Part shown: positions 250 through 41,399 of the stretch, piece by piece
Numbering within the stretch: position 1 is the first letter of the stretch
Layout: every line of letters starts with the position of its first letter
DNA from: Bacteroidaceae bacterium
GTDB lineage: Bacteria > Bacteroidota > Bacteroidia > Bacteroidales > Bacteroidaceae
NCBI GenBank assembly: GCA_017557635.1
Contig: JAFYYH010000021.1
Location: 1 to 64,000 of the forward strand
Length of the DNA stretch: 64,000 nucleotides
Direction of reading: 5' to 3'
Translations under genes and position numbers: made by a program
Notes under the pieces: model-generated
The model's input: the letters and a program-made list of their open reading frames with translations, nothing else
Database searches by the model: none
What the model was told of the DNA's origin: nothing

Positions 250-1656
250 ATGAAAAGAATAAACGCATTTTTGTTTGCAGCGGCACTGCTGTGCGCAGTC
301 GCACCCGCCAGTGCCCAGAAGGCCCGCATTCTGGAACAGAAGCAGGGCAGTATAACGTTTGTGGTTGATGAGAACCTTCCCCAACCGCAAGATCAGTACT
401 TTAACGGCAAAGCTCAGTCTGAAAGGATTGAGTTCTTAGGCCGGGAGGAGTATTACGATCTGGATAACAGCTACATCGCAGCCAGTTTCTGGAATATGCC
501 GTTGACTGTCGATGACACTCCGTTCTTTACCGGAATGGTACGCGCATTTGCTGATCATCGGCCCATAACTCTCTCGCCCGATGTAATCTGGATGCTCATA
601 AGCCAGGCTTTCTCACATGACGTAAACGCTAATCCGGAGAAGTTCCGTGACAAACTGGTGGGGTTTGACGGAAAGATGGACCTTGTTGTCCAGGCTGAAT
701 ATCCGCTCTATCATCCCGACTTTGACTGGACCGAAACCATTGACGGTTTTGCCAGGCAGATAGATGACAACACCAGGAACGACGTGGCAAAACTCATAAC
801 GGCCGATTTCTCAACCACCGGAACCAATGAGCGTCTGGCATCAGAGATTGTGCTTATGGAGGCCACCAAGTCATTCTTTGAATTCATTATAATGTATGCC
901 GGATGCGGATTCCCGTCCATTACGCTGACAGGAACCGTAGAGGATTGGCAGGCTATAGTTGACAAGACCGCCCGTCTGCGTAAACTGGGTGCGGGCAAGT
1001 GGGCATCGGACCTTAAGCCTATTCTGGAAGAGTTCGTAGATGCCGCCAAGGGTAAGCCCGATCAGGCATTCTGGCAGGATATTGTAATGAAGAATACCCC
1101 TGAAAAACTGCGCGGCGGAGCCTGTTCGATGGATGAGCCCACTGAACTGGACGGCTGGTTCCTCAAGTTCATGCCATATGACAAAGACGGCAAGCCCACA
1201 CCTGCCACGGTTCCGCACAACTATAATAAGTTCCCCAAACAGATGGCATCGGTACCGGTCAAATACATTGAAGTAGACCCTCAGACCGGCCGTATAATAA
1301 ACACAATAACATTGGAGATGACGGGCGGTATAGCCGGATTCATGGCCGATGAAAACGACTGTGTCTCATTCCATCTGGGTTGGACCGTAGACGAGTCTGA
1401 AGCCGACAGGAACATGAAAATGTTCAGTGAGGCTGACGGCTGGGTAACACTGGAAATAAGCAAAGTTCCCGAAGAGTTGAAAGCCGTTGAGCACTACGAT
1501 GTGCTGGAACTGCGTTTTAAAGATAAGGTTGATATTCCCGATTGGTTTTATGATATGGATATCGACCAACTGATTATCAGAGGCAAAGTATCGTCTGCCC
1601 AGAAAAAGAAACTTGAGGAGCGTTTCGGAGAAGATAACGTCACCATCAGGAGGTGA
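250..1656 (+). CDS. Secreted DUF4419 domain protein
   Basis: About 468 residues. The N-terminus (MKRINAFLFAAALLCA, ending in ASAQ near residue 23) is a typical signal peptide, so I choose the ATG at 250 over the one at 241 or the longer open frame back to 28. The motif SPDVIWMLISQAFSHDV near residue 108 and the later GCGFPSITLTG and DEPTELDGWF segments match the DUF4419 family as I know it. That family occurs in fungi and bacteria and has no established biochemical role. The protein should be periplasmic or outer-membrane associated. The gene converges on folE, and its TGA stop is the first three bases of a short palindrome. The domain call is fairly firm; the function is unknown. Confidence 0.75.
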   Translation: MKRINAFLFAAALLCAVAPASAQKARILEQKQGSITFVVDENLPQPQDQYFNGKAQSERIEFLGREEYYDLDNSYIAASFWNMPLTVDDTPFFTGMVRAFADHRPITLSPDVIWMLISQAFSHDVNANPEKFRDKLVGFDGKMDLVVQAEYPLYHPDFDWTETIDGFARQIDDNTRNDVAKLITADFSTTGTNERLASEIVLMEATKSFFEFIIMYAGCGFPSITLTGTVEDWQAIVDKTARLRKLGAGKWASDLKPILEEFVDAAKGKPDQAFWQDIVMKNTPEKLRGGACSMDEPTELDGWFLKFMPYDKDGKPTPATVPHNYNKFPKQMASVPVKYIEVDPQTGRIINTITLEMTGGIAGFMADENDCVSFHLGWTVDESEADRNMKMFSEADGWVTLEISKVPEELKAVEHYDVLELRFKDKVDIPDWFYDMDIDQLIIRGKVSSAQKKKLEERFGEDNVTIRR

Positions 1657-1684
1657 CACAGTAGGGGCAGTCCCTATTGTGTCA
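1654..1684. repeat. Short palindrome (element E1) forming both convergent stop codons
   Basis: TGACACAGTAGGG and CCCTATTGTGTCA form the arms of a 31-base near-perfect palindrome with a GCAGT centre. The leftmost TGA is the stop of the DUF4419 gene and the rightmost TCA is the stop (TGA) of folE on the other strand. It resembles the termini of the larger GGGGACGG elements but lacks the GGTTC part. It may act as a bidirectional hairpin at the convergent ends, although no long T-tract follows. Confidence 0.6.
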
Positions 1685-2275
1685 CTTTCTGGAGATGAGA
1701 TTCATGAACTCCTCACGGGTCTTGGCGCGGTTGAAAGCGCCGGTAAAATCTGATGTAGTTGTAATGGAATTTTGTTTCTCCACGCCACGCATCTGCATGC
1801 ACATGTGACTGGCCTCTATGACCACCATCACGCCGAGCGGCTGGAGTGTTTCCTGAATGCAGTCCTTAATCTGTGAGGTCATGCGCTCCTGTACCTGGAG
1901 GCGGCGTGCAAAGGCATCTACCACGCGGGCAATCTTGCTCAGACCTGTAATGTAACCATTGGGGATATATGCCACGTGAGCCTTGCCGTAGAACGGCAGC
2001 ATATGGTGCTCACAAAGAGAATAGAAGTCAATATCTTTTACTATGACCATCTGGCTGTAGTCCTCCTTGAACATAGCCGATTTAAGGATGGCCGATGGGT
2101 CAATCTCATATCCGCTGGTAAAGTCCAGAAGCGTCTTTGCCACACGCAGAGGAGTGCGTACCAGACCCTCACGGCCGGCATCGGGCTCAATAAGTTTAAG
2201 TATCTCCTCGTAGTGATGCTTCAGTGCCAGAAACTTCTCGGACTGCTCATCGGAATATGGTATCAATGAACTCAT
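1682..2275 (-). CDS. folE: GTP cyclohydrolase I
   Basis: 197 residues, close to the usual length of the catalytic core family. The enzyme turns GTP into 7,8-dihydroneopterin triphosphate, the first step of folate synthesis and also the entry to queuosine-type deazapurines. Visible zinc ligands are C88 and H91 in the CEHHMLPF motif and C159 in HMCMQMRG. The [20 protein letters not shown] segment carries the conserved active-site helix. The start overlaps the stop of the upstream SPOR gene by ATGA, so it is translationally coupled and is the last gene of the operon that begins with the M23 peptidase. Its stop codon lies in the E1 palindrome. Confidence 0.96.
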
Positions 2276-2727
2276 AGCGGGATTGTAATATCCTGATTAC
2301 GTAAAATGATCATTCCCTTGTAGGGAGTTTCCTTTCTAAGTTTGCGCAATACGTCATAGGCCTCCTCATAATAGAGGAAATCACCTACGGTGCATAACCA
2401 GCGCGGGTTCTTGAACTCAGTGTGTACCGGCAGTTCGGGATACTTGGAGCGGATATAGCGGTCCGCCTCATTGGCCCTCTCCTTTGATGCACGCGTGTTG
2501 TTTCCTGCAAAGACCTGGATGCGGTATCCCTTGGCCTTGATCTTTGTGCCAGTATGTGCCTCAGATACCGTTCCGATAAGACTGTCCAGACGCGCGTCAC
2601 GTTCAACGCGTACCTGACCCTTACCGGGGATATCCCTCTCCAGTACCTGGACCAGTGTGGTTGTCTGTTGCGCACTGGCCAGGACTGTAAAGAGAAGCAG
2701 GAATACTATTAATCCTGTCTTTTTCAT
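2272..2727 (-). CDS. SPOR domain protein, exported
   Basis: 151 residues with an N-terminal signal peptide ([15 protein letters not shown], cut near residue 19). The C-terminal 80 residues ([23 protein letters not shown]... and [16 protein letters not shown]) match a SPOR fold, which binds denuded glycan strands of septal peptidoglycan. The protein should sit in the periplasm. It lies 7 bases after tpiA and overlaps folE by 4 bases. The same folE, SPOR, tpiA order is known to me from Bacteroides genomes, so the position is ancestral. The role in cell division is inferred from the domain alone. Confidence 0.85.
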
Positions 2728-2734
2728 ATCGTTT

Positions 2735-3496
2735 TTACTTCTTCCAAGCGTCGATGATGCCCTTGAAGTCGGCTACCTTAAGAGAGGCGCCACCGATAAG
2801 ACCACCGTCGATGTCGGGTTTTGCAAAGAGCTCACCAGCGTTTGAAGGCTTGCATGAGCCACCGTAAAGGATAGAAGTATCCTCAGCAATCTGCTTTCCG
2901 TACTTGTCAGCGATGACTGAACGGATGTAAGCGTGAATCTCCTCAGCCTGATCGGCAGTAGCGGTCTTACCGGTACCGATAGCCCAGATGGGCTCGTAGG
3001 CGATGGTGATATTCTTGAACTCCTCAGCTGAGAGATTGAATACTGAACCCTCGAGCTCAGCCTTAACAATCTGGTTCTGGATGCCCTTCTCGCGCTCGTC
3101 GAGTGACTCACCGATGCAGAAGATAACCTTCAGACCGTTGGCAAGAGCCAGCAGCACCTTCTCCTTGAGGATCTCATAGGTCTCGTGATAGTACTCACGA
3201 CGCTCTGAGTGGCCCAGGATTACATACTCGGCACCGGTTGACTTAACCATAGCGGCTGATACCTCACCGGTATAAGCACCTGACTCCTTATCGGCGCAGT
3301 TCTCAGCAGAGAGACCGATAACCTTGTGGTCAATGATATCAGAGATTTTTGCAAGATGAATGAACGGTGTGCCGATAACCACGTCGCAACCCGGTTTGTC
3401 AGCAGCCAACACCTGATTCAGCTCCTCAGCGAGAGCAATACCTTCCTGGAGAGTCTTGTTCATCTTCCAGTTTCCGGCAACAATTTTCTTTCTCAT
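2735..3496 (-). CDS. tpiA: Triosephosphate isomerase
   Basis: 253 residues, full length. It interconverts dihydroxyacetone phosphate and glyceraldehyde 3-phosphate in glycolysis. Catalytic residues are all present: N9 and K11 in GNWKMNK, H96 in LGHSERR and E168 in [14 protein letters not shown]. The phosphate-binding GGSCKP and GGLIGGASL loops are intact. It is a cytoplasmic (beta-alpha)8 barrel dimer by family knowledge. The ATG at 3496 gives the canonical N-terminus [11 protein letters not shown]. It is the fourth gene of the operon, 19 bases after the DoxX-like gene. Confidence 0.98.
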
Positions 3497-3515
3497 TTCA
3501 ATAAGTATTAAAGTG

Positions 3516-4646
3516 TTATTGTATCAATTCTTTCAGTCTGTCAATGGCCACAAGCAGAAGCAGCGGCAGTGCGAACAGCAGGGTTACAGCCCACGGGGTC
3601 CTGATGGGATCATGAGCGGGAACCTGTCCTACGCTTATCTGATCCAACGGTCCGGAGAGCTCTTCATCGGACGGGATGTTGGCGTGACTCCACTTGTTCA
3701 CTATCACACCGTCCCTGATGAGTACCAGACCCGGGTTGGAGCGTACTATGGTCTGCAGCGGAATCTCGTCGCAGAAATAGAACTGCAGATCGGCCCCGGC
3801 GTTCTCGGTCCACTGACGGATGGTCTCGGTGCCCGATGAGGTGAGTCCCATTATATTATATCCCCAGTTGGCGCAATAGTCAAATATGTCGTCAATCAGG
3901 TCCAGGTCACTCTCGCTGGCGTCCTCAAGGTGTGAGGATATTACCAGGAAGGTGTAACTTGAATCGTTCAGGACATCCATCGTCACGTCATCCATGTCAT
4001 CATTCATGATGCAGAAATCGGTGAATGTCATGTCGTGGTTCTCATAGGCGGTGCGCAGATCGGTCCCGATCTTATAGGGACGGAAATCCAGAACCGGCAG
4101 GTTGATGATGTTGCTCACCATGAACCTTACCGATATGGCTACGATGACCACTGTCACCATCCAGTGACGGCGCTCGGCCATGAACGGCACTATGAGTTTG
4201 TGCTTGATGAATACCAGCAGAGCCAGAGCCAGCAGGAAGACGTTCTTGGCAAAGGTCTGCCAGTTGCTCAGCACTACGGCGTCACCAAAGCAGCCGCAGT
4301 CCGATACGGGGTTCTTGATGGCCAGGTAGAGTGTGAAGGGTGTAAAGAACACCATCATGAGCAGAGCCAGCAGTGATGAGCCCCTGCCGAACGCGCCTAC
4401 CACCAGGTAAGAACCTATCAGTATCTCAAAACCTGCCAGGATGCAGGCCAGAATAAGCAGTGTGGATGCAAGAACGGATTCACCCATGCCAAAGGCATAG
4501 AGGTAATCGATGAGCTTGATCTGGGTACCGGTGGGGTCGATAGCCTTGACTATACCGGAGAACATGAATGTCAGACCCAGCAGGACCCGGCAGAAATTCA
4601 CCAGCACCTTAAGAGGCATTCCGCTATGTTTTGTCTCTGTACCCAT
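3516..4646 (-). CDS. DoxX/MauE-type membrane protein with thioredoxin-like tail (BT_3928-like)
   Basis: About 376 residues from the ATG at 4646; a GTG one codon earlier is also possible. The first 150 residues hold four hydrophobic segments typical of DoxX/MauE-like proteins ([19 protein letters not shown] is the first). The segment SDCGCFGDA carries a CxC motif between two membrane helices, as in vitamin-K-reductase or MauE-like redox proteins. A periplasmic region of about 170 residues follows and then a final membrane helix. The gene sits between DUF1599 and tpiA, an order I recall from Bacteroides, where the product is simply called BT_3928 family. A role in disulfide chemistry is an inference from the CxC motif. 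Confidence 0.75.
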
Positions 4647-4649
4647 CAC

Positions 4650-5216
4650 TTATGCTTTTGACTGTTCCTGTATCTTAATGAGTCCGAATACGGCGTAGTT
4701 GATCATATCCATGTAGTTGGCGTCGATGCCCTCGGATACCACCGTCTTGCCCTCATGACTCTCAATCTCCTTGGTACGGTTGATCTTGGTCAGGATAAGG
4801 TCGGTGTATGATGTGGTACGCATTCCGCGCCAGGCCTCGTCGTAGTCGTGGTTCTTCTTTTTCATCAAATCCAGGGCTGCCTGTGAGTACTTGTCATACT
4901 CCTTGAGCGCCCAGTCGGCATCCTTATCGACAGTATCGGAGAAACCGTGCTCCAACTGAATAAGAGCAATGACTCCGTAATTTACTATGCCGATGAGCTC
5001 GGACTTGATGCCCTCATCAATGAGTGAAACACCCTTGGTCTCGATGCTGCGTATGCGCTTGGCCTTGATGAATATCTGGTCGGTCAGAGACTCGGGACGC
5101 ATAATACGCCATGAAGCGCCGTAATCCTGCAGTTTCTTTACGTACAGGGCGCGGCACATCGCGATAACCTCCTCAAACTCCCTGTTGGTATCGGGAGTGT
5201 TTTTTTTCTCACTCAT
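4650..5216 (-). CDS. DUF1599 family protein
   Basis: 188 residues, no signal peptide, soluble. It contains two similar halves: LYVKKLQDYGASWRIMRP in the first and LMKKKNHDYDEAWRGMR in the second. Each is followed by SLTDQIFIKAKRIRSIE or SYTDLILTKINRTKEIE. This internal duplication is the hallmark of DUF1599, whose DYG/DYD and E residues resemble the metal-binding all-alpha NTP pyrophosphatase (MazG-like) fold; that relation is my inference. It lies between the M23 peptidase gene and the DoxX-like gene in one operon, with 10 bases to the former. The molecular function is not established. Confidence 0.8.
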   Translation of the reverse strand: MSEKKNTPDTNREFEEVIAMCRALYVKKLQDYGASWRIMRPESLTDQIFIKAKRIRSIETKGVSLIDEGIKSELIGIVNYGVIALIQLEHGFSDTVDKDADWALKEYDKYSQAALDLMKKKNHDYDEAWRGMRTTSYTDLILTKINRTKEIESHEGKTVVSEGIDANYMDMINYAVFGLIKIQEQSKA

Positions 5217-5226
5217 ATCAGTCCTG

Positions 5227-6063
5227 TCATTGTATCCTCAGCGTCTGTCCCGGCTTGATGACGGCCTTGCTTGTGATGCCGTTCAGCTTGCAGATATTGG
5301 ACACCGAGGTCTCGTTCTTTAATGCTATTCCACTCAAAGTATCCCCGCTCTTGACCCTGTAATAGACCGGGCGGGTATTCTTCTCGTACACGTAGAAGTC
5401 CGTCTGGGCCCGCTGGTGCGGGAAGTCAAACATCAGCGCGGGGTTGATGGCGTTACCCAGAATCCTGGTCTCAAAATGCAGATGAGGACCTGTGGAACGT
5501 CCCGTGTTGCCGCCCAACGCTATGGGATCACCGGCGTGTACTATTTCGTTTTCGGTCACCAGTTTCTTGGACAGGTGTCCGTAAAGCGTTTCAAGTCCGT
5601 TCGGATGGCGTATCACCAGATAGTGTCCGTAGCCTCTGCGCTCGTAGCGTGATATGCGGACCTTTCCGTCAAATGCCGCACGTATGGTGTCACCGGTCTT
5701 GATCCTTATGTCCAGGCCCATGTGCTGACGGCCGCGGCGGGGACGGTATCCGAACTTATCGGTTATGTATGTGCTGTCGGTGGGCATGCAGTATCCTTTC
5801 ATGGATATGATGACCGAATCCGGCAACCTTACATTGTCATAGTTGTGTACGTAGCTGTTGCTCCACTCCGGATAGAGGAATGATGCGGGATTCTCCAGAT
5901 CAACCGCCAGTCCGGGATTCAAGTGCTCGGGTATCTCGACCCTTGCCATCGGCATTACAGGCGTGACGCGTTCCGGCATCATATCCTGAGCGGCGGACTT
6001 TACCACCCCGAACACCATAACCGACATCAAAATCAAGAACCTGCAAACAGCCCTCATGTACAT
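5227..6063 (-). CDS. M23 family metallopeptidase with C-terminal LysM
   Basis: About 278 residues. A signal segment (VCRFLILMSVMVFGVVKSAAQ) is followed by an M23 peptidase with the zinc motifs HMGLD (HxxxD) and HLHFE (HxH), then a LysM domain (YRVKSGDTLSGIALKNETSV...). It should cleave or bind cell-wall peptidoglycan in the periplasm. The open frame extends to an ATG at 6084, but a -7 box (TACCTTTG at 6082-6089) overlaps that start, so I place the start at 6063 (the ATG at 6057 is also possible). It is the first gene of the operon running to folE. Confidence 0.88.
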   Translation of the reverse strand: MYMRAVCRFLILMSVMVFGVVKSAAQDMMPERVTPVMPMARVEIPEHLNPGLAVDLENPASFLYPEWSNSYVHNYDNVRLPDSVIISMKGYCMPTDSTYITDKFGYRPRRGRQHMGLDIRIKTGDTIRAAFDGKVRISRYERRGYGHYLVIRHPNGLETLYGHLSKKLVTENEIVHAGDPIALGGNTGRSTGPHLHFETRILGNAINPALMFDFPHQRAQTDFYVYEKNTRPVYYRVKSGDTLSGIALKNETSVSNICKLNGITSKAVIKPGQTLRIQ

Positions 6064-6081
6064 CTTTTTATTTTCAGACTG

Positions 6082-6089
6082 CAAAGGTA
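6082..6089 (-). promoter_or_regulatory. -7 box of the M23-to-folE operon
   Basis: On the minus strand TACCTTTG fits TAnnTTTG. It lies in the 34-base gap between recG and the M23 start and rules out the most upstream ATG of that gene. No convincing -33 TTTG was found at the normal distance. Confidence 0.45.
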
Positions 6090-6097
6090 GTTATTTG

Positions 6098-8742: not shown

Positions 8743-8745
8743 AAG

Positions 8746-9540: not shown

Positions 9541-9546
9541 CGGTCG

Positions 9547-9960
9547 TTATTTGCGGTCGGGACGGCGTGTGGCAAGCACCACCTTGAACTGGTTCTCATT
9601 AGCTATGTTCAGGACCTTTACGATCTCCTTGTAGGGGACGGACTCATCGGCATAAAGGGCTACGTACATTTCGGGCTCCTTCTGCGAGCAGTCAATCAGG
9701 AAATCGGTCAGTTCCTCAAACACGATGGGCATCTCGTCATCATTGCCGAACGCGGTGTAGTAGTTCAGGTCGCGGTCTATGATGACGCGGGTCAGCGGTT
9801 TGGCCGATGTCTGCTGCGAACTCTGCGGCAGCAGCACCTTGATGGCGTTGGGGCTGACCATCGTGGATGTTATCATAAAGAATATCAGCAGCAGGAATAT
9901 GATGTCGGTCATTGACGACATACTGAACTGCGGCGATACCTTATTGCGTCTCTTCAGCAT
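9547..9960 (-). CDS. exbD: ExbD/TolR family biopolymer transporter
   Basis: 137 residues with one N-terminal membrane helix (MTDIIFLLLIFFMITSTMV). The D of SSMTDIIF is the conserved proton-carrying aspartate of ExbD/TolR. The rest is a periplasmic domain. It lies one base after exbB and 6 bases before the tonB-like gene. Many Bacteroidetes have two exbD copies in this operon; here only one is present. Confidence 0.9.
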   Translation of the reverse strand: MLKRRNKVSPQFSMSSMTDIIFLLLIFFMITSTMVSPNAIKVLLPQSSQQTSAKPLTRVIIDRDLNYYTAFGNDDEMPIVFEELTDFLIDCSQKEPEMYVALYADESVPYKEIVKVLNIANENQFKVVLATRRPDRK

Positions 9961-9961
9961 A

Positions 9962-11444: not shown

Positions 11445-12317
11445 ATGCGTTTCGCCATATTCGGAAATACGTCACGTGACAAGTTCTGCGGCCATGAGCA
11501 GCAGTTCTTTAACCTGCTCCGCTCACTCGGTGACGGCATATCTGTGGACCGCCCGTACTACGAGTTCCTGACCCGCACCATGGGTCTTGAAATCCCCTGC
11601 GACACCCTGTTTGACGGCAGTGACTTTACGGCCGATGCAGTCATCAGCGTAGGCGGCGACGGCACATTCCTGCGCACCGCAACCCGCGTAGCCGACAAGG
11701 GCATCCCGATGGTAGGTATCAACACCGGCCGTCTGGGCTTTTTGGCCGATATCACCACCGACCGCATTACCGACGCCATCACCCGCATACACAACGGCCA
11801 ATACACTCTTGAGGAGCGTAACCTGCTGCAGATAAACATGGAGGGTCTGCCCCAGGGCCACACCCCCTACGCCCTCAACGACATAGCCATCCTTAAGCAC
11901 GATATCTCATCAATGATACAGGTTGCCACCAGCGTTGGCGGCACGCAGATGATCACCTATCAGGCCGACGGTCTGGTAGTGGCCACACCCACCGGCTCCA
12001 CCGCCTATTCTCTGAGTGTAGGTGGTCCGATAATCGCTCCCGGCACCAACGTCATCTGCCTGACCCCCGTAGCACCGCACAGCCTCACCATGCGTCCGCT
12101 GGTTCTGCCCGCTAACGAGACCATCCGTCTGGACGTAACCAGCCGCAGCCACAGCTTCCTGGTATCAATCGACGGCAAAAGCTTCAGCTGTCCCGAACAC
12201 ACAGCCATCGAAATCAGCCGCGCCCCCTTCAAGATCAGCGTCATGAAACCCGCCAAAGGCGATTTCTTCGCCACCCTAAGGGAAAAGATGCTCTGGGGCA
12301 CCGATTCCCGAAAGTGA
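11445..12317 (+). CDS. nadK: NAD kinase
   Basis: 290 residues, usual length. It phosphorylates NAD to NADP with ATP. The diagnostic GGDG motif is at residues 70-73 ([14 protein letters not shown]), followed by [11 protein letters not shown] and the NAD-binding [22 protein letters not shown] block. The gene is divergent from pdxJ and shares the 63-base intergenic region. Its TGA stop is formed by the first bases of palindromic element E2. Confidence 0.97.
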
Positions 12318-12429
12318 CATTGGGGACGGTTCTCTTTGGCACCAAAAAAAGATTCCATCTAGCACTTTTCGATGTTAGATGGAATTTTTAATTTTAGCTA
12401 TATGCCAAAGAGAACCGTCCCCAGTGTCA
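12315..12429. repeat. Palindromic element E2 (TGACA-GGGGACGGTTC family)
   Basis: 115 bases. The left arm begins TGACATTGGGGACGGTTC and continues TCTTTGGCA; the right arm is its reverse complement with TGACACTGGGGACGGTTC read on the minus strand. Between them ATTCCATCTA (12352-12361) pairs with TAGATGGAAT (12376-12385), flanked by A-runs and T-runs, which is a good bidirectional terminator. The left TGA is the nadK stop; the right end lies 5 bases past the argD stop. Other copies are at 18621, 23486 and 41285, and single arms or relatives at 1654, 20891 and 25147. Confidence 0.85.
12345..12391. terminator. Hairpin terminator inside element E2
   Basis: A 10-base stem (ATTCCATCTA with TAGATGGAAT) has seven A before it and a T-run after it, so it can end transcription from nadK and from argD. 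Confidence 0.65.
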
Positions 12430-12434
12430 CTTTG

Positions 12435-18595: not shown

Positions 18596-18627
18596 CAAAT
18601 GTACTCCAAAAAACCGAAAGTGAGCAA
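18596..18627 (-). promoter_or_regulatory. Promoter of ino1, with -33 box inside element E3
   Basis: Minus strand: -7 box TACATTTG (18596-18603), 21-base spacer, -33 TTG (18625-18627). The spacing fits Bacteroides promoters (19 to 21). The TTG lies in the outer arm of palindromic element E3 (CCCTAATTGCTCA), so the element appears to provide part of the promoter. Confidence 0.45.
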
Positions 18628-18722
18628 TTAGGGACGGTTCTTTTTTGCGCGTTTGATTTTTAGTTCATTTAATGAGGAAATTTTCCATGAACGCGCAAAA
18701 GAGAACCGTCCCTAATTGCTCA
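18621..18722. repeat. Palindromic element E3
   Basis: 102 bases. Arms begin TGAGCAATTAGGGACGG on each strand and continue GTTCTTTTTTGCGCG on the left and GGTTCTCTTTTGCGCG on the right (minus strand). The inner part has GTTCAT (18663) pairing with ATGAAC (18687) and GGAAA with TTTCC. The right-hand TGA (18720-18722, minus strand) is the BlaI stop codon; the left end borders the ino1 promoter. The arm sequence differs from E2 and E5 but matches within the element. Confidence 0.85.
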
Positions 18723-19082
18723 CCTCTTCAGCTCAGCCAGGAGTGATTCAAGTTCCTGAATATCGGACTCCGTGAGATCGTTGTCGCGGATGAATGTGTT
18801 GAGCAGGGATTTGGCCGATCCGCCGAACAGGTTGTCTTTCATATGCTTAAGTGACCACCTGTTGTACTCCGGCTTCTCTATAAGCGGGTAGAATATGAAC
18901 TTCTTGCCGTCACGCTTATGGGCCAGGAACCCCTTCTCCTCAAGAATCTTCATGAAGGTCTGAACCGTATTGTATGCAGGCTTGGGCTCCGGCAGGCGCT
19001 GCAGGACATCCTCCACGCAGCAGTTGCGCACCTCCCAGATGACATTCATCACCTCCTGTTCTCTTTCTGACAGTGCTTTCAT
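18720..19082 (-). CDS. BlaI/MecI/CopY family repressor
   Basis: About 120 residues from the ATG at 19082 with AAAGAG just upstream; the M56 gene stops 4 bases before. The winged helix spans LSEREQEVMNVIWEVRNCCVEDVLQRLPEPKPAYNTVQTFMKILEEKGFLAHKRDGKKF, where PAYNTVQTFMKILEEKG is the family DNA-recognition and dimer signature. The rest is the C-terminal dimerisation helix region. It should repress its own operon; cleavage by the partner protease lifts repression in known systems. The tandem dyads at 21275-21313 are its probable operator. Order is protease first, repressor second. Confidence 0.93.
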   Translation of the reverse strand: MKALSEREQEVMNVIWEVRNCCVEDVLQRLPEPKPAYNTVQTFMKILEEKGFLAHKRDGKKFIFYPLIEKPEYNRWSLKHMKDNLFGGSAKSLLNTFIRDNDLTESDIQELESLLAELKR

Positions 19083-19086: not shown

Positions 19087-21222
19087 TTATTCAATATGTT
19101 TGGGGCTCACGTACAGACGGCGGGTGAATGTGGTTACCCAACCCTCCATCTTTGTAAGCAGTTTATCCAGAAACTCTACCGGTACGGACTCATCATCCAT
19201 GGGCAGTTCAAGGAGAACTATTGCGCTGCGCTCATTGCCGTCAGGGCAGTTGGCCTTGAAGTAAGGAACCAGATCGTCAAATGCCAGAGGTGCCAGTTTT
19301 GAAGGATCATTACCCTTGCATACGCAGAGCTGTCCGTTTACGAATGCCATACGGAAGAACTCCTCCTTGTCCTTATTGTCGTTATACCATTTCATGTTCT
19401 TGACATGGCGCTTGCGACCGCTGTCATCACCATACTTTCCAAGGATAATGTAGTCAATTGAATCCCTGCGAGTCATGTTGGCAGGACCTTTGTTGGCCTC
19501 GGCACGGGTGTACTTCAAATCGGCCATCAATACTTCCATTTCTCTCCACATACGAATGGAACTGGTACGGTCAATATCAACACTGTACTTTACTTTGGAT
19601 CCTGCGCCGGGATAAAATTTCTCCAAATCGGCCTTGAGTTCCTTATAACTGCCAACTGTACGGGTCGCCTTTTTCTGAACCGGTTCGCCCACGGGAGATA
19701 CATTATAAGCCGTATACATCAGCTTATTGTCGGCATTCACCTGTATGGCAACGTACTTATCCTTATCGGTATTGACATTGTAGCCCCAGCTTTCAACACC
19801 TGCCGGTGGAGGCGGAACGGTACGTTTGAGTGAGAATACAACAATCTTATCGGAGGCATAGGTCTTGGACAGTATCTCCACTAACTGGGCACACTTCTCA
19901 ATCTGATCCTGAGTTTCAAAATGTACAAACACCATGTCTGGATTAGGATTCTTGAATGTATTCTCTTTCTTAATGCGTTCAAACTCTTTCTCAAAATTGG
20001 CAAGAGTTGCAGGATGGAAAGTCTTGTTGCCGTCAACAGAAATCCAAATGGAACCATCCTTTTCAACAATGACAAATATATCTGCCATATCGACCTTGTT
20101 GGGTCTGGGATATTTCTTCAGGAATGCATCGGCATCAAACGGTTCCTTTTGAGCCACAGACTGTGCAGTGGGCTGGACGGCAGGCGCCGGAGCTGATTCT
20201 ATGGCAGGCTCAGACTGAGCTACATCAGAATTACCCTGGGCGGCATCAGACTTGCAGGCCGATGACATCAGGATGAGAACTGCCACTGCGGGCAACAAAA
20301 GCAAAGCTCTAAAGCAAGCAAAGGGAGAAGATTGATTGCGTTTCATCATCGTTATACGTTTTTTGGTTGAACAATCGGCAAAATTGCTGGTCACATACCC
20401 TATCCTGCCGCTGAGTGCGGCCTGGACAAGGCAGAGCTGGTACTGGCGCTCGTTGCGTCCGTCGGCCAGCACGGCGGCATCGGCCTCATACTCGTGCACC
20501 TCCTGGAGGCTGCGCTTGAGGGCCCACACGGCGGGATTGAACCACTGCAGGGCGCAAACCATTTGGGCCAGCATCACATCGATCGAGTGACGGTGGTGTA
20601 TATGCGCCTGCTCATGCTCTATTATCATACGGGAGTTGTCCGATTCATAATCACTGCGGCTTATTATAATGGTCCTGCGCCAGCTGGTGGGCTGGAACTC
20701 ACCGTCGCAAACAAGCAGTTTGGAGCCGTCAGGAAGTTCACGTCCGCCAAGCCTGCAGAGCGTCTCGGCCCGGGTAATACCCACAAGAAGCCTGATCATA
20801 AAGAACACCACACCCATCAGATATAAATAGGTGATTATACTAACCCAATCCATCTGAGTCACCGTCTCCGCCACCTTCACACCCGCGATCAATTGGGGAC
20901 GGTTCTGTTTTGCACGTGAAACGGTTAACTCTTGGGCAGGCTCTTGCTCGTTCAAAACTGAACTAGCCACAATTGCATCATCCCAAACAACTGACTCCGC
21001 AATATAGACAGGTTCATCTTGGGGCTCCTGCTCTGCCTTGGTATTCAAGTCAAAGTGAACTCCCTGTATTTTTACAGCCGGAAGTATTGCAGAAAGTCCG
21101 ATTATGGAAAGCAGCATGATCCTGTTGAACCGATGCAAGGTAGTGCGGCTCATCGCCAACCGGTAAACCCCGTAAAGAAGGGCCAGGCACAATGAAGATA
21201 AAACAAGGTAAATCATAATCAT
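19087..21222 (-). CDS. BlaR1-like M56 sensor metalloprotease with large C-terminal extension
   Basis: About 711 residues from the ATG at 21222 (MIMIYLVLSS); a start at 21216 is also possible. The first 170 residues hold three hydrophobic segments, then IIEHEQAHIHHRHS gives the zinc motif HEQAH (about 203-207), with the third ligand region in EVHEYEADAAV. A further helix (LLLLPAVAVLILMSSACKS) precedes an extracytoplasmic tail of about 400 residues that includes an ExbD-like stretch (ADIFVIVEKDGSIWISV). The segment RAKQNRPQ (about 103-110) in the loop between helices is encoded by one arm of the GGGGACGG repeat. It senses an unknown signal and should trigger loss of BlaI. Confidence 0.85.
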   Translation of the reverse strand: MIMIYLVLSSLCLALLYGVYRLAMSRTTLHRFNRIMLLSIIGLSAILPAVKIQGVHFDLNTKAEQEPQDEPVYIAESVVWDDAIVASSVLNEQEPAQELTVSRAKQNRPQLIAGVKVAETVTQMDWVSIITYLYLMGVVFFMIRLLVGITRAETLCRLGGRELPDGSKLLVCDGEFQPTSWRRTIIISRSDYESDNSRMIIEHEQAHIHHRHSIDVMLAQMVCALQWFNPAVWALKRSLQEVHEYEADAAVLADGRNERQYQLCLVQAALSGRIGYVTSNFADCSTKKRITMMKRNQSSPFACFRALLLLPAVAVLILMSSACKSDAAQGNSDVAQSEPAIESAPAPAVQPTAQSVAQKEPFDADAFLKKYPRPNKVDMADIFVIVEKDGSIWISVDGNKTFHPATLANFEKEFERIKKENTFKNPNPDMVFVHFETQDQIEKCAQLVEILSKTYASDKIVVFSLKRTVPPPPAGVESWGYNVNTDKDKYVAIQVNADNKLMYTAYNVSPVGEPVQKKATRTVGSYKELKADLEKFYPGAGSKVKYSVDIDRTSSIRMWREMEVLMADLKYTRAEANKGPANMTRRDSIDYIILGKYGDDSGRKRHVKNMKWYNDNKDKEEFFRMAFVNGQLCVCKGNDPSKLAPLAFDDLVPYFKANCPDGNERSAIVLLELPMDDESVPVEFLDKLLTKMEGWVTTFTRRLYVSPKHIE
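20891..20917. repeat. Single arm of the GGGGACGG element inside the M56 gene
   Basis: AATTGGGGACGGTTCTGTTT followed by TGCACG is a clear copy of one arm of E2, E3, E5 and E7. No second arm is nearby. It reads in frame as RAKQNRPQ in the protease, without interrupting the gene, and lies in a poorly constrained extracytoplasmic loop. Confidence 0.75.
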
Positions 21223-21274
21223 TGGAGCAATTAGGTTAATCTCTGCGACAAAGAAAAACTCCAAAAATCTCAAA

Positions 21275-23179: not shown

Positions 23180-23488
23180 ATGGCTGAATTAATAGTTTCA
23201 ATAGTCCTTGCAACCTTCAACCTAGTTTTGGGAATATTCGTTCTGATGGGTAAATGCGACAACTTTATCCTGGGTGGTTTCAGCTTTCCTACAAGCAAAG
23301 ATGCCGAGAAATTTGACATCAGACGCCTGAGAATTCTTATCGGCATATTCCTGTTAATTATGGCACCGTTGTTCTTAAGTCTTAACATCGAAGGATCCAA
23401 ATGGCCGGGACACTACTTCTCAGTCACCATCTTTTCTATCCTCATCATCTATTACATTCTGGTCTACACCTGGGCCAAGAAAAGATGA
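23180..23488 (+). CDS. Small membrane protein, DUF3784-like
   Basis: 102 residues with an N-terminal helix (LIVSIVLATFNLVLGIFVLMGK), a central soluble segment (SKDAEKFDIRRLRILIG) and two further helices. Length, layout and the KDAEKFDIRRLR segment resemble DUF3784 proteins, though I am not certain. It follows the DUF1648 gene in the same direction. Its TGA stop is the first three bases of element E5. Confidence 0.6.
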   Translation: MAELIVSIVLATFNLVLGIFVLMGKCDNFILGGFSFPTSKDAEKFDIRRLRILIGIFLLIMAPLFLSLNIEGSKWPGHYFSVTIFSILIIYYILVYTWAKKR

Positions 23489-23603
23489 CAAAGGGGACGG
23501 TTCCGTTTGGCACGTCTTCAAAGCGCAAAAATCCCATCTGAGCATACTGTAGCGCAGATGGGATTCTTTTTTAGCGTGCCAAACGGAACCGTCCCCTTTG
23601 TCA
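23486..23603. repeat. Palindromic element E5
   Basis: 118 bases. Both arms start TGACAAAGGGGACGG, then GTTCCGTTTGGCACG on the left and the exact complement on the right. The inner hairpin ATCCCATCTG (23531-23540) with CAGATGGGAT (23555-23564) is followed by CTTTTTTAG and preceded by A-runs, making a bidirectional terminator. The two end TGA trinucleotides are the stop codons of the convergent genes at 23180 and 23601. Confidence 0.88.
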
Positions 23604-31805: not shown

Positions 31806-31813
31806 CGGCCGAT

Positions 31814-35287: not shown

Positions 35288-35323
35288 ATCTCAATTCTAA
35301 ATTCTCAAGTCTCAATTCTCAAT
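35288..35323 (-). repeat. Imperfect microrepeat between galE and the kinase gene
   Basis: On the plus strand the 9-mer TCTCAATTC occurs twice within TCAATTCTAAATTCTCAAG and the following bases. It is a short A/T-rich stretch without a stem. Confidence 0.35.
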
Positions 35324-36337: not shown

Positions 36338-37227
36338 CAATCGATCTTTTTCTTTTCAACTGTCCAGTCGGGACGTGACTCCAAACCGCAGGGTTTACCC
36401 TTGAGCATGGCTGCTGCCTCCTTGTCGCCCTTGAGCTGCCACTCGAGCCAGGCCAACGCGGCAATTGAGAACTCACCGCCGTGAGGCTGTCCGTATGTGC
36501 CGCCGTGACCTACGGGGTAGTTCACTGCAACTGCGGGAACATGGTCTATGCGCTTGAAATCATCCATTCCGTTCTCATATGCTATGTCGGTAGGACCGCC
36601 CAGCAGATACATTACCGGAGTGTGGATCTTCAAGAGGTCCTCCTTAGCGGGCATCGGCATACCGGGAACTGCACCTGACGGGTCGATGAACGAACCGCTG
36701 TTGCATATCATGATAGCCTTGAGACGCTTGTCGGCTGCATTTACCAGAGTCTGCAGACCGCCGCATGACATACCCGCTGCAGCAATGTTCTTAACGTCCA
36801 GCTTATTGTAATAAGGGCTGTTCTTATCGGAATTCTGAGCTATTGCCCAGTCAAGTCCCTCAATCTGCTGCTCGGCTTTGGACTGTGCGCCGCGGTAACG
36901 CTCACCCTCGGCAGGCCAGTAACCTATGGCAACTACCAGGAATCCGTGTGATGCAATCTCGCTCAGGAAGTTCTGATGCTCCCAGGGTGAGTTGGTGCAG
37001 GCACCGTTACCCCAAACCAGGATAGGCAGAGGGTTCTTCTTGCTGAAAGCACTCAAATCAGCGGGACGGAAAATGGTATGGGCCTCAAGACTGGGCTCCT
37101 CAACCATTATTGCCTTGTAAGGGCCTGTACCGCCATCCTCTACAGTGCGGTTCTTAGTATAAGTCTCCTGAGCATTCAAGCCCATCACAAACGCTGCACC
37201 CAGCAGCAAAGAAAGAATCCTTTTCAT
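36337..37227 (-). CDS. Secreted alpha/beta hydrolase, esterase-like
   Basis: About 296 residues from the ATG at 37227 with a signal peptide (MKRILSLLLGAAFVMGLNAQ). The nucleophile elbow is AAAGMSCGGLQTL; a histidine is in YPVGHGGTYGQPHGG and an acid in GGPTDIAYE. It resembles dienelactone-hydrolase or chlorophyllase-like secreted proteins. Such enzymes in this phylum often remove acetyl or feruloyl groups from polysaccharides, but the substrate is not readable. It leads the operon to galE, the GHMP kinase, nucleotidyltransferase and GSCFA. Confidence 0.8.
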   Translation of the reverse strand: MKRILSLLLGAAFVMGLNAQETYTKNRTVEDGGTGPYKAIMVEEPSLEAHTIFRPADLSAFSKKNPLPILVWGNGACTNSPWEHQNFLSEIASHGFLVVAIGYWPAEGERYRGAQSKAEQQIEGLDWAIAQNSDKNSPYYNKLDVKNIAAAGMSCGGLQTLVNAADKRLKAIMICNSGSFIDPSGAVPGMPMPAKEDLLKIHTPVMYLLGGPTDIAYENGMDDFKRIDHVPAVAVNYPVGHGGTYGQPHGGEFSIAALAWLEWQLKGDKEAAAMLKGKPCGLESRPDWTVEKKKID

Positions 37228-37253
37228 ATTCAAAAATATTTATAGTCGTTTCG

Positions 37254-37282
37254 CAAATATACAACAAAACCCATTTAACAAA
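37254..37282 (-). promoter_or_regulatory. Promoter of the esterase-galE operon
   Basis: Minus strand: -7 TATATTTG (37254-37261), 17-base spacer, -33 TTTG (37279-37282). The spacer is slightly short. Confidence 0.45.
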
Positions 37283-37296
37283 GATTCCCCGTGAGC

Positions 37297-37428
37297 GGAA
37301 CTTTTGGGGGTATCGGTATCAGAAACCATAGACGCCCATGTCTCTGTGAATGGGAGGGGCCCGCTCCGTAGGAGTGGGAGGGATAGGCCGAAGGCCGTAG
37401 TTTCAGATACTGATACCCCAAAAGTTCC
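37297..37428. repeat. Palindromic element, third family
   Basis: 132 bases. The left arm GGAACTTTTGGGGGTATC plus GGTATCAGAAAC pairs with the right arm GTTTCAGATACTGATACC plus CCAAAAGTTCC (about 29 bases, few mismatches). The centre is GC-rich with GGAGGGGCCCGCTCC, GGAGTGGGAGGG and AGGCCGAAGGCC, which fold into smaller hairpins. It lies between the GH51 stop and the esterase promoter. Confidence 0.75.
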
Positions 37429-37440
37429 CTTCAAAACCTG

Positions 37441-40044
37441 TTAAAAGTTCCTAGTTATTGTCAGAACACCTGCTGAGAGAGCGGGAACATCCAGTATCAC
37501 ATCATTGCCGTCAATCTGACCTTGTGCCTTCTGCAGGGCAACGGCGTTCTTGTTCTCCATGCTGTTGGCAACGGTCAGCGAGCCCGGAGCATAGTACTCG
37601 AACTCTGTGGCCGATACGCCCGTCCAGTCACCCTTGATGCGGATCTTTCCGGCCTCCTCGGTGGGGTTGACAACCTTTACGATCACATCGGCACCGTTCT
37701 CAGACATGGTGGTGCTTACGCTGATATTGCCGGTTTCACCGGTGAATGCAAGACGGTACTTTGAGAAGTGGTCATACCAGAGTTCGGTTACCTGGCAGTT
37801 GGGAGCCTTGAAAAGATCCTTATAGTCAAAGTTGATGAACGCGTTGTTCCAGTCAGGAGCATCGGTACGGCGTATGAACAGTGCGGCTGCACCCATGGCA
37901 ACCACGTCGCGGGCCTCACACATATTCAGGAATCCGCCGGCAAACAGACCTGTGCGCCAATCGATGCTGTTCAGGTTCCACTCTGAGATAAAGAGCTTGA
38001 TGTTGGGGTTGGGACCCTCGGCAATCATCTTGGCATAACGGTCGTACTGCTGGCCCAGACGTGCGGGACCGGTAGCGTAACCGCCCTGCTGCTCGTAATG
38101 GTGCAGGCTCAGATAGTCAAAGTAATTACCGCTGCGCTTGATGAACTGCTCGTCCTCACCGAATCCGCCGCAGGCAATGATCTTGATTGACGGGTCGATC
38201 TTGCGCATGGCGGTGCTGAAGTCACGAACGCACTTCTCATAGCGCTCAATACCCATCTCCCACATCTCGTTGTCAATCTCCCAGTACTTGACGTTATAGG
38301 GCTCGGGATGTCCGTTGGCGGCACGCTTTGCACCCCACTCATCGGTGGCGGGAGCATTGCAGTAACGCAGCCAGTTCACGGCATCCTCAAGAATCCGGTC
38401 GTATTCATCGGCCGGACGCTCAAACTTGACGCTTACCACGATCACGGGCTCGGAGTTGACCTCGCGGCAGAACTTTATGAACTCATCGGTACCAAAGCAG
38501 TTCTGGTCATAGTCCATCCACATCCAGTGTGCCCAGCGCTCACGGTTCTCTTGCGGGCCGATACCCCACTGCCAGTCATACTGAGCAACGTATCCGCCGC
38601 CCGGCCAGCGCAGACATGTAGGATGCAGTTCCTTAACGGCCTGAAGGATGTCGGGACGGAAACCGCCAAGGTCCTTACCGGTCTGAGTTGAAAGGGTAAC
38701 CATATCAACCTGTACGGTGCCTCCCTTTACAACGATCGCAAAATCACCGTCGCCGCTTATCTGCTCAACCTTGCCGCCGACTATCTTCATCCTAAGGTTC
38801 ATATTCTCCTGTGTTCCTTCGCCAAGAGCCTGAGGCTCAAGGGTGAACTCATATTTCTTCCACTCCTTGCTGTTTATCTTGCCAAGTGACTGACGAGCCA
38901 CGAAATCACCTTTCTCATTACGCAGTCCTACTATCAGTTCACCCTTGCCCTTGGCATAGATTGAACCTACATACTTCTCACGGACAATTATATTCTGCGG
39001 GCCCTGTGCCATGCCGGCCTCAGCCTTCTTGCCGGCCGTAATCTCCTGTGAGTAACGCATGTTCACGGCATCGTCTTTAATAAGACGGTACTTACCCTCG
39101 CCGAATGCGGTCCACTCGGGAGCGACCTCGGGAATCTGAACATCCTTGGGAGTACCGGTGAATACGGTGTTTTCACCGCTCTTTACAACGATGTTGCGGT
39201 ATGTAGCCTCGGTGTAGTTGACCCAGAAAACCAGGTCGTTCTTACCGGTCTGCTCCAGGCCGCTGTACTTTACAACCTCCTTGTCATCAAAGTACATGGT
39301 AACATCGGCACCCTTACGGCTTATGCGAAGTTTGTGCCAGTCCTGTTTCTCGTTCACCTGATCCTTTGTGGCAGGGGCCGATGCCAGAGCGGACAGTGTA
39401 TTCATGCGTCTGCCCGGACGTCCGCCGAATCCCTGTGATTCACGAACCTCCATGGCGCAGATTGAGAAATCTGCAGTGGAGCTCTGCGGCTGCAAGGCGG
39501 CGCGTGCGTTTGCCTCATTGGCAGCGGCAATCTGTGACTCGGTCTGTGCGGGTGTGAATGTGCGTCCCTCATAATAGGGATCGTGGATGCGTGCAAAATA
39601 TGCGCTTCCATCGGCCTTTTGTCCGAATGCGAACCTTATATCCATCAGTCCGCCGCTCCATGAACGGCGTGCCAGCTTGTATGAACGCCAGTTAAGGTCC
39701 ATTGTTATCTCGTAGTCATCGGACTCGATGGTGGCTATATTCAGAGGTTGCTCGTAACGTGTGGGTGAATGCAGGATCATGTCATCATCCATGAACCATC
39801 CGTCAAAGTAACCGTCACGAGGCGGAATTCCGGGATACTGCTCGGGTTCGAATGAACGGCCGTATATCAGCTCCTGCCAGACACCGTTGTTGGCGCTGAA
39901 GTAGATGTGCTCGAACAGCTGTCCGTACAGCATCTCGTCAATGATACCTGAGGGCTGCTTGCTCTCAACTGTGATTTCATACTCGTTTTGCGCCCCAGCC
40001 TGTAAGGTCAGCAGCGACAGGGCAATGGTCAGTAATTTTTTCAT
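37441..40044 (-). CDS. GH51 alpha-L-arabinofuranosidase
   Basis: 867 residues with a signal peptide (MKKLLTIALSLLTLQAGAQ). The catalytic acid/base is the second glutamate of WEIDNEMW and the nucleophile is the glutamate of ISEWN; GGYVAQYDWQWGIGPQENR and LRWPGGG are family blocks. A laminin-G/CBM-like insert spans roughly residues 100 to 310, longer than most GH51 enzymes. It removes arabinofuranosyl side chains from arabinoxylan or arabinan. It follows the U32 gene by 12 bases, in the same direction. Confidence 0.93.
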   Translation of the reverse strand: MKKLLTIALSLLTLQAGAQNEYEITVESKQPSGIIDEMLYGQLFEHIYFSANNGVWQELIYGRSFEPEQYPGIPPRDGYFDGWFMDDDMILHSPTRYEQPLNIATIESDDYEITMDLNWRSYKLARRSWSGGLMDIRFAFGQKADGSAYFARIHDPYYEGRTFTPAQTESQIAAANEANARAALQPQSSTADFSICAMEVRESQGFGGRPGRRMNTLSALASAPATKDQVNEKQDWHKLRISRKGADVTMYFDDKEVVKYSGLEQTGKNDLVFWVNYTEATYRNIVVKSGENTVFTGTPKDVQIPEVAPEWTAFGEGKYRLIKDDAVNMRYSQEITAGKKAEAGMAQGPQNIIVREKYVGSIYAKGKGELIVGLRNEKGDFVARQSLGKINSKEWKKYEFTLEPQALGEGTQENMNLRMKIVGGKVEQISGDGDFAIVVKGGTVQVDMVTLSTQTGKDLGGFRPDILQAVKELHPTCLRWPGGGYVAQYDWQWGIGPQENRERWAHWMWMDYDQNCFGTDEFIKFCREVNSEPVIVVSVKFERPADEYDRILEDAVNWLRYCNAPATDEWGAKRAANGHPEPYNVKYWEIDNEMWEMGIERYEKCVRDFSTAMRKIDPSIKIIACGGFGEDEQFIKRSGNYFDYLSLHHYEQQGGYATGPARLGQQYDRYAKMIAEGPNPNIKLFISEWNLNSIDWRTGLFAGGFLNMCEARDVVAMGAAALFIRRTDAPDWNNAFINFDYKDLFKAPNCQVTELWYDHFSKYRLAFTGETGNISVSTTMSENGADVIVKVVNPTEEAGKIRIKGDWTGVSATEFEYYAPGSLTVANSMENKNAVALQKAQGQIDGNDVILDVPALSAGVLTITRNF

Positions 40045-40056
40045 ATCTGTAATTGA

Positions 40057-41328
40057 TTATCGTGATACAACTTTAAAGAGCTTGTCACCGCGGCGCACAC
40101 GCTCCGGAGTCTTGAATGATACTCGTACTCCCTGCGGCACGGTCTCAACGGTCTTGAGGTCAACTCGCGGATCATCCAGGTTGAATGTGATGCATCCGGT
40201 AGTGGCACCGGTTACCATCAGTTTGTCGCCTGCGCTGATGGGTGCGGCCTCAATGCTGAACTCGGCAACCTCAATCTTTGAGAACCAGTCGGTGCACTTG
40301 CCTACATAGACCTTGGTCTCGGTGGCCTGAGATCCGTACACATCATTCCACTCGCCTAGACGCTGGCCCAGATAGTAGCCGTCCCAGAATCCTCGGTTGA
40401 ATACCGTAGCCAGGCGCTTGTCCCAATTATCCTTCTTTTCATCGGTGAAATCGCCGTCCAGAACAGCCTGGATTGCCTCACCGTAGCACTCGGCAACAGT
40501 GCGTACGTATTCAGGTCCGCGGGCACGGCCCTCGATCTTGAACACCTGTACGCCGGCCTCGATCATACGGTCCATGAAGCGTATGGTCTTGAGGTCCTTG
40601 GGCGACATTATGTACTGGTTTTCAATAGCCAGTTCTATATCGGTCTCTCGGTCCTTTACAATATATCCGCGGCGGCACAGCTGCATGCATGCACCGCGGT
40701 TGGCGCTTGCGTTCATCTCGTTAAGGCTCAGGTAGCACTTGCCGCTTATGGCCATGCAGAGAGCTCCGTGGCAGAACATCTCAATGCGGATACGCTCGCC
40801 CTTGGGTCCGCGTATATCCTGCTCTATTATCTGCTTATGGATTTCAGTCACCTGATCCAGATTCAGCTCACGCGCCAGCACCACCACATCAGCAAACTGG
40901 GCATAGAACTTGAGCGCCTCGATGTTGCTTATGTTGAGCTGGGTTGAAAGATGCACCTCCATGCCCACCTTGTTGCAGTAGGTCATCACCGCAATATCGC
41001 ATGCTATTATGGCCGATATCCCCGCCTCCAATGCGGCATCCACAATCTCATGCACCAGAGGAATGTCCTCACCGTACATCACGGTGTTCAGGGTCAGGTA
41101 ACTCTTGACTCCGTGCGCGTCACACTGGCTGGCAATCTCACGCAGATCATCCAGCGTAAAATGGCTGGCACTGCGCGAACGCATGTTCAGTTTCTCCACA
41201 CCGAAGTAGATTGATCCCGCTCCGGCCTGGAATGCAGCGGCCAAAGACTCCCACGAGCCTACCGGCGCCATAATTTCGAAATCATGCCATTGGGGACGGT
41301 TCTCTTTGGCACTACTTTTAGAATCCAT
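40057..41328 (-). CDS. Peptidase U32 family protein with repeat-derived N-terminus
   Basis: 423 residues if started at 41328. The U32 core starts at MAPVGSWESLAAAFQAGAGSIYFGVEKLNMRSRSA, with RIRIEMFCHGALCMAISGKCYLS as the family iron-sulphur-like cysteine block. Some family members are collagenases and others modify tRNA or make ubiquinone. The first 19 residues (MDSKSSAKENRPQWHDFEI) come from element E7: AKENRPQ is the same translation as the arm in the M56 gene. The core ATG at 41271 is an alternative start, but conserved relatives begin a few residues earlier, so the element may supply the start codon. Confidence 0.85.
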   Translation of the reverse strand: MDSKSSAKENRPQWHDFEIMAPVGSWESLAAAFQAGAGSIYFGVEKLNMRSRSASHFTLDDLREIASQCDAHGVKSYLTLNTVMYGEDIPLVHEIVDAALEAGISAIIACDIAVMTYCNKVGMEVHLSTQLNISNIEALKFYAQFADVVVLARELNLDQVTEIHKQIIEQDIRGPKGERIRIEMFCHGALCMAISGKCYLSLNEMNASANRGACMQLCRRGYIVKDRETDIELAIENQYIMSPKDLKTIRFMDRMIEAGVQVFKIEGRARGPEYVRTVAECYGEAIQAVLDGDFTDEKKDNWDKRLATVFNRGFWDGYYLGQRLGEWNDVYGSQATETKVYVGKCTDWFSKIEVAEFSIEAAPISAGDKLMVTGATTGCITFNLDDPRVDLKTVETVPQGVRVSFKTPERVRRGDKLFKVVSR

Positions 41329-41399
41329 ATTGCGCTATTTATACTTTTTCAAAATCGCTTTCCTCAGATTGATGCCAAAGAGAACCGTCCCCACTGGCA
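41285..41399. repeat. Palindromic element E7 fused to two genes
   Basis: 115 bases. Left arm TGCCATTGGGGACGGTTC then TCTTTGGCAC; right arm on the minus strand TGCCAGTGGGGACGGTTC then TCTTTGGCAT. The left arm lies inside the U32 N-terminus and the right arm inside the dusB C-terminus. Unlike E2 and E5 its tips are TGCCA, not TGACA, and the centre has no clear hairpin. Confidence 0.85.

Follow-up and report, generated by a model that had tools for sequence, protein, structure and literature searches.

REPIN-like inverted doublets with terminator-like loops at gene ends in a Bacteroidaceae genome

Inverted repeats tied to Y1 transposases have been described in several forms. In TIRYT or TIRtron systems, inverted repeats with the motif GGGGWSAS flank a Y1 transposase gene, and dimers and clusters of these repeats are dispersed in some genomes (available text of PMC3733652 and PMC6006769). 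The available text of PMC6006769 adds that repetitive extragenic palindrome (REP)-like sequences were not found beside the genes of subclass 2.1 and that the identity of subclass 2.1 with TIRYT needs further analyses to be confirmed. The REPINs of Pseudomonas are inverted doublets which form one long hairpin and are tied to RAYT genes, and compensatory change in REPINs has already been reported (both from the accessible part of PMC3116915). For the GTAG REPs the accessible part of PMC3733652 describes a position next to the 3' ends of convergent or co-directional genes, ends which often supply the stop codon to the flanking open reading frames, and some families that sit within longer palindromes. 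Here we analyse a stretch of 64,000 nucleotides (nt) from Bacteroidaceae bacterium (assembly GCA_017557635.1, contig JAFYYH010000021.1, positions 1 to 64,000), referred to as the window, in which an initial annotation had noticed a family of palindromes with the copies E2, E3, E5 and E7. We consider them to be inverted doublets which resemble REPINs and are of the RAYT/TIRYT kind, the long ones located at gene ends and at some sites in place of a host hairpin, and we assign this reading a probability of about 0.68.

A doublet family with linked transposase genes

E2, E3, E5 and E7 are the top four of the 21 inverted repeats detected in the window (arms of at least 16 nt, at most 400 nt apart). 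Their arms of 27-34 nt show 96-100% complementarity, compared to 75-91% for the repeats ranked 5 to 9. The palindromes with matching arms that had been proposed are thus real: the words quoted for them were found on both arms, with one difference in E3 (TTTTTT vs TCTTTT). E2 (12311..12433; arms 12311-12341/12403-12433, 31 nt, 97%) belongs to the 99-nt class, E3 (18620..18723; arms 18620-18653/18690-18723, 34 nt, 97%) to the 82-nt TTTTGCGCG type and E5 (23486..23603; arms 23486-23514/23575-23603, 29 nt, 100%) to a 102-nt class. E7 (41285..41399; arms 41285-41311/41373-41399, 27 nt, 96%) is again of the 99-nt class and has lost its inner terminator stem. No strand is assigned to any of the four.

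The core GGGACGGTTC occurs 199 times genome-wide (105 + 94), whereas the reversed control gave 2 + 0 matches. We examined the copies in 400,579 bases taken from their surroundings; 169 of the 199 exact cores are inside these stretches and 30 outside. These bases contain 67 head-in inverted pairs, and inexact cores dropped five pairs from the arm-matching test and four from the gene-context count. The 62 pairs with exact or near-exact cores fall into 29 short doublets (43-54 nt from core to core, which also defines this class) and 33 long ones (defined as at least 60 nt, observed at 72-121 nt). All four window palindromes are in the long class. One arm represents one repeat unit, in which the core GGG(G)ACGGTTC stands between a variable foot and a second foot able to pair back, and two inverted units with a loop form the doublet. 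As in REPINs, two inverted units enclose a spacer, the copy number is high and the copies are mostly extragenic. In the short doublets the loop is small and the two arms differ; they form dense clusters around a transposase gene at locus L041 (G000:C20:215001-234999) and also on contigs C7, C10, C13 and C18. In the nested copies L202 and L240 one doublet lies symmetrically within another, with 28 and 30 nt matching.

The genome encodes two Y1 (HUH) transposases, with a PF01797 score of 43 bits where the cut-off is 23. Both proteins carry NHVH and YIHQNP, i.e. the HUH and Y---NP motifs of RAYT or TnpA-REP. They reach 59.3 and 58.5 bits with NCBIfam NF047646 (E 3.7e-16 and 6.6e-16), which is under its curated cut-off of 80, and the match to the solved TnpA-REP 4er8 is weak (E 0.0085). 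Subclass 2.1 (RAYT group 1) is marked by a helix-turn-helix tail and an FQ motif. FQ is present in GHLFQDRFRSE, and by eye the C-terminal tails resemble a helix-turn-helix; Pfam reported no such match, and YIHQNP is the Y motif listed for subclass 2.6. Copies of the GTTTGGTA type flank the gene at C20:126786 and copies of the CTCTTTGGC type the one at C20:227676, with doublets on both sides of each gene, as expected for a REPIN next to its RAYT gene. The copies thus form a single family, as the initial annotation had it, and a mobility gene is linked to them.

We found the same association across the genus. A Y1 match above the cut-off was present in 23 of 37 genomes, and 27 of the 30 transposase loci encode the NH-u-H motif. 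Among those 27 the core GGG[AT]C[AG]G lies at most 200 nt away on both sides in 19 and on at least one side in 25, and in the genus loci the core density is 6.75 per kb close to the gene compared to only 0.55 per kb beyond 400 nt. The core types ACGG, ACAG and TCAG, labelled by eye at 24 of the 27 loci, cluster on the transposase tree (4 changes vs a shuffled mean of 10.7; 0 of 200 shuffles as low), though near-copies alone can cluster a label. At 13 of the 24 labelled loci the core is either GGG(G)ACAG or GGG(G)TCAG, in agreement with GGGGWSAS; at 11, including both loci of this genome, it has ACGG and is one base off. The doublets would thus be non-autonomous elements that are probably moved by the Y1 transposases encoded elsewhere in the genome.

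Loop hairpins, gene ends and arm matching

The initial annotation had described the inner hairpins of E2 and E5 as terminator-like, and the folding of the loops agrees with this. For 114 of 117 long inner sequences tested, the centre folds with a mean z of -4.28 and 82% of the values are below -2, whereas 150 random segments of the window gave a mean of -0.18 with 6% below -2 (composition rather than dinucleotide shuffles, 60 per loop and 40 per control). A strong loop hairpin is usual at lengths of about 97 nt and more. The hairpin of E2 (12348..12389) looks like a terminator in both directions, with an A-run at the 5' and a T-run at the 3' side, and that of E5 (23527..23568) is terminator-like as well; neither is assigned a strand. 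In E3 no strong inner hairpin was detected (z 0.0; the sole 82-nt loop tested). Most long doublets of at least about 97 nt thus have a terminator-like hairpin in the loop, and these loops would terminate transcription.

We also observed compensatory change in a set of eleven loops, all related to the 99-nt class. These comprise 10 of the 17 loops of 97-101 nt plus C13:305283 and were chosen for a common stem; the other seven, including E7 and its copy in relative G029, were excluded because that stem is not common to them. Within the eleven, 227 of 241 cells are paired, whereas slid partners reach 31-48%. Both sides have changed in 8 of the 22 pairs, and 6 of these 8 lie in the inner stem; the structure scored was derived from the same alignment. 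The proposal that the folded form is maintained is thus supported for the stem of these chosen loops.

Long doublets (n = 33) lie between convergent genes in 20 cases and between co-directional genes in 13, with no divergent case. For the short doublets (n = 30) we counted 9 convergent, 18 co-directional, 2 divergent and 1 undecided. We examined 169 exact-core arms; 94 of them face a 3' gene end, and in 48 of these the stop codon falls within the foot, at a distance of exactly 5, 7 or 8 nt before the core. The left arm of E2 contains the TGA of the + frame 11445-12317, and the arms of E5 contain the stops of both convergent frames (TGA 23486-23488, TCA 23601-23603). Doublets thus lie at gene 3' ends, the stop codon is often part of the foot, and convergent gene pairs are the commoner setting of the long ones.

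Between copies the arms were said to vary while matching within each copy. We found this for the long doublets, where the outer positions -7 to -11 match in 82, 91, 73, 76 and 70% of cases, whereas the short doublets (n = 29) reach only 66, 55, 34, 24 and 34%. We then shuffled partners within types, using two types which cover 28 of the 33 long and 25 of the 29 short doublets. The 12 copies of the long GTACC type match at 61 of 72 positions, compared to 46.1 ± 3.9 after shuffling (0 of 20,000 shuffles), and the 16 copies of the long GGC type at 57 of 96, compared to 43.9 ± 4.2 (p 0.002). The short types show no excess (18/42 vs 24.8 and 41/108 vs 47.8). Because the short doublets fail, arm matching does not characterise the family as a whole; mostly mismatched copies, which would speak against paired arms, make up the short class alone. 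A second set consisted of 79 long doublets out of 81 pattern matches in 16 named genomes, mostly uncultured Bacteroidales plus Butyrivibrio, Acetatifactor, Clostridium and Bacillota records, two matches being too close to the end of their locus. Here positions -9 to -12 match in 218 of 316 cases vs 194.0 ± 7.1 (0 of 5,000 shuffles) and positions -13 to -20 in 212 of 632 vs 197.1 ± 12.6 (p 0.13), so the matching of the outer ends reaches about -12. The test for the extension of the matching ends shuffled partners across types, which means that its means overstate the effect, and the within-type tests stand instead. Pairing of the outer with the inner foot of one arm was not significant as the main signal within types (p 0.14, 0.57, 0.65 and 0.06); between transposase types the feet do pair by eye.

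Sites in relatives and rival explanations

Doublet occupancy varies between species, and this pattern of presence and absence may reflect movement or excision of the doublet as a unit. One informative site lies behind tRNA-Tyr, the only tRNA found within 45 nt of a core (in three genomes; 63 tRNAs in the loci, overlapping loci counted). Of 30 loci 28 were readable: 24 have a plain terminator hairpin with no REP in reach, 3 have a doublet (this genome included) and 1 has neither. In G030, with a plain terminator, REP units follow further on. In many relatives this terminator sits in a longer palindrome that mirrors the 3' end of the tRNA (CACCCACAAA...TTTGTGGGCGGAGATGGATTC). We also noted the mirrored tRNA-Tyr 3' end downstream of the terminator as GAATCCATC...GATGGATTC in many genomes of the genus; it was not seen in the stretches of G001, G004, G009 and G013. 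In G033 a 99-nt doublet stands where the others have the terminator, with the host palindrome GAATCCATCTTCACCCACAA...TTGCGGGTGAGATGGATTC surviving as its outer arm ends. The doublet of this genome (121 nt) has mostly lost the right-hand host arm, and G027 carries a GGGACAG-type doublet. Two further sites resemble this one. At C13:329231, filled here, the element-free site of G032 is a hairpin of -15.5 kcal/mol with stems resembling the outer ends of our copy. At C19:316627 a host hairpin (-9.4 to -10.5) is present in four relatives; in G035 another doublet lies within it, and the sixth relative was unreadable.

On these grounds we suggest that some doublets lie inside, or have replaced, a hairpin present in relatives, such as the terminator behind tRNA-Tyr. 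The host hairpin would have come first, its leftover palindrome would become the outer arm ends, and the doublet's own terminator would take over the role of the host's. Arm ends of this origin would match within a copy and differ between copies.

For the E2 site we could anchor 19 of the loci from 20 relatives. In 4 of these the conserved flanks are separated by 7-20 nt. G029 carries a doublet of the E5 type at this position and G035 one of the GGGTCAG type; the remaining 13 contain different inserts of at least 59 nt, several of them with other palindromes. E7 has a near-identical copy at the same place in G029 and is absent from G032, G018 and G031. It overlaps two predicted frames, giving the N-terminus (MDSKSSAKENRPQWH...) of 40057-41328 (-) and the last residues (...GDGSLWHQSEESDFEKV*) of 41339-42376 (-), and this location, in a copy without a terminator stem, may account for its higher conservation compared to the flanks (85-90%). 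E7 would thus give coding sequence to both adjoining genes, which we note as a separate observation. Feet-only scars of the strict form CCANTG...CANTGG occur 7 times vs 7 in one shuffle, which gives no indication that such excision scars are numerous; looser patterns are in excess (129 vs 87, and TGACA...TGTCA 40 vs 14).

Several observations weigh against the reading of doublets set into host hairpins. The G032 site at C13:329231 could be an excision footprint rather than a target, and the feet of our copy at C19:316627 are unlike the host hairpin, the likeness being confined to G035. The picture at C19:305270 is mixed, with a plain terminator-like hairpin in three of the six relatives, a REP-like hairpin in G034 and an upstream one only in G018 and G032. 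The element-free relatives lack a strong host hairpin at the sites of E2 (CGCAAATAATTATTTCAG in G032 and G011), E7 and L041:976, and at the E3 site it is weak. The foot is in part typical of the element (TGACAAAG in the 102-nt class). Moreover, strong hairpins were not found in loops of 74-84 nt, the two-way terminator look (A-run before and T-run after the stem, in 65 of 95 loops with a stem of at least 7 bp) is a count without a control, and the gene calls behind the context and stop-distance counts come from a home-made open reading frame scorer. Since the E2 and E7 sites have no host hairpin, host hairpins are not the whole story, and since the foot is partly element-typical, host origin cannot cover the whole match. 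Host hairpins therefore explain some of the arm matching, and element-typical feet and possibly arm copying the rest.

The arms could also become alike, and the palindrome extend into the flank, if replication or transposition involved template switching or fold-back synthesis that copies one arm from the other. The inner positions of the long GTACC type match in 48 of 48 cases, long site-specific matching ends occur in L230 (21 nt) and L243 (20 nt contiguous), and at C19:305270 the CTGAA of the left arm mirrors the host TTCAG at the right and is missing in G018. However, the short doublets, which should be the easiest for template switching, retain unlike arms, and the tRNA-Tyr palindrome is present in element-free relatives, which makes arm copying an unlikely account of the matching in general. 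The self-complementary synthesis proposed at the outset is likewise not needed at tRNA-Tyr, C13:329231 and C19:316627, where an element-free relative already has a hairpin or inverted repeat, parts of which correspond to the outer arm ends of the filled site (in G033, in this genome and in G035, respectively). It may still have produced copies such as L230. If selection acted on nothing but the folded RNA, as a terminator or stabiliser of the mRNA end, compensatory mutation would keep the arms complementary after insertion, and both the compensatory pairs of the inner stem and the location at the 3' ends of convergent genes are in line with it. Yet a terminator needs only the inner hairpin, the outer ends match throughout the class even though those of E2 lie more than 30 nt outside it, and paired substitutions would be required at many sites. 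We regard this explanation as somewhat less likely still. That the palindromes are ordinary, immobile bidirectional terminators that look alike by convergence is highly improbable: their loops are indeed terminator-like, but a single exact core occurs 199 times (the reversed control 2 times) and copies flank the transposase genes, neither of which fits, and the differing presence between species already contradicts it.

A stronger form of the preferred reading, doublets at host hairpins, is a hairpin-for-hairpin exchange, in which the HUH transposase would act on the terminator hairpins of host gene ends and swap in a doublet with a two-way terminator and in-frame stops. We put this forward tentatively and consider it doubtful as it stands. 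If true, a mobile element would rebuild gene 3' ends at little cost, which would explain how a small element cheaply reaches about 70 or more doublets in a compact genome of 2.4 Mb, and terminator replacement by an HUH transposase would become directly testable.

Further window features and comparison with known systems

The window contains two single units. E1 (1653..1685, no strand assigned) is a diverged unit, GTGACACAGTAGGGGCAGTCCCTATTGTGTCAC, in whose two ends both convergent frames terminate (TGA 1654-1656, TCA 1682-1684); exact-core units of its type are also found at C2:33346, C13:202774 and C18:93159. The unit GATCAATTGGGGACGGTTCTGTTTTGCACGTG (20887..20918, + strand) lies within the open frame 19087-21273 (-), and the matching stretch of G033 holds several units with another core type. 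A second, larger palindromic element occupies 37290-37435 (GGAACTTTTGGGGGTATCGGTATCAGAAAC ... GTTTCAGATACTGATACCCCAAAAGTTCC). It is absent at this site in G032, G018, G029 and G011, and in G031 its arms are of another type. Several such types (GGAACAGAAGGGGATATAGTCTC, GGAACAAGTAGTATATACTCTC) occur among the relatives; judged by eye, the arms match within each, and some interiors recur. A scan of the window with Rfam at the gathering threshold returned two tRNAs and nothing else.

Compared with TIRYT systems, inverted repeats flank the Y1 gene here too, and GGGGACAG and GGGGTCAG of the relatives fit GGGGWSAS, whereas the core of this genome, GGGGACGG, is one base off. Loops with terminators, and repeats at host terminators, are undescribed for TIRYT in the available text of PMC3733652 and PMC6006769. 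The inverted doublets, the one long hairpin and the RAYT link resemble the Pseudomonas REPINs as these are described; the accessible part of PMC3116915 characterises the spacer by its length and capacity to form a hairpin, not as a terminator. As with GTAG REPs, our doublets lie at 3' gene ends, have stops in their ends and in some cases sit inside longer palindromes. Unlike GTAG REPs, their feet vary by type (TGACAAAG, YRRTACC, GCC, TGAACAATTA), GTAG occurs in some copies only and GT[AG]G does not describe the family. The stop in the foot is TGA, TAG or TAA depending on the type, which differs from a fixed GTAG foot.

Text searches of the literature did not return terminator-carrying doublets at host terminators. 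With the present family, TIRYT-like transposases, whose probable subclass had no REP-like partner in one survey, would gain a dispersed partner repeat, and the core type tracks the transposase tree within one genus. The kind of element is already known, namely REPIN-like doublets of a RAYT/TIRYT transposase. As far as text searches of the literature tell, the new features are the conserved loop hairpins that look like two-way terminators, the contrast between the arms of long and short doublets, and the doublets at sites where relatives have terminators.

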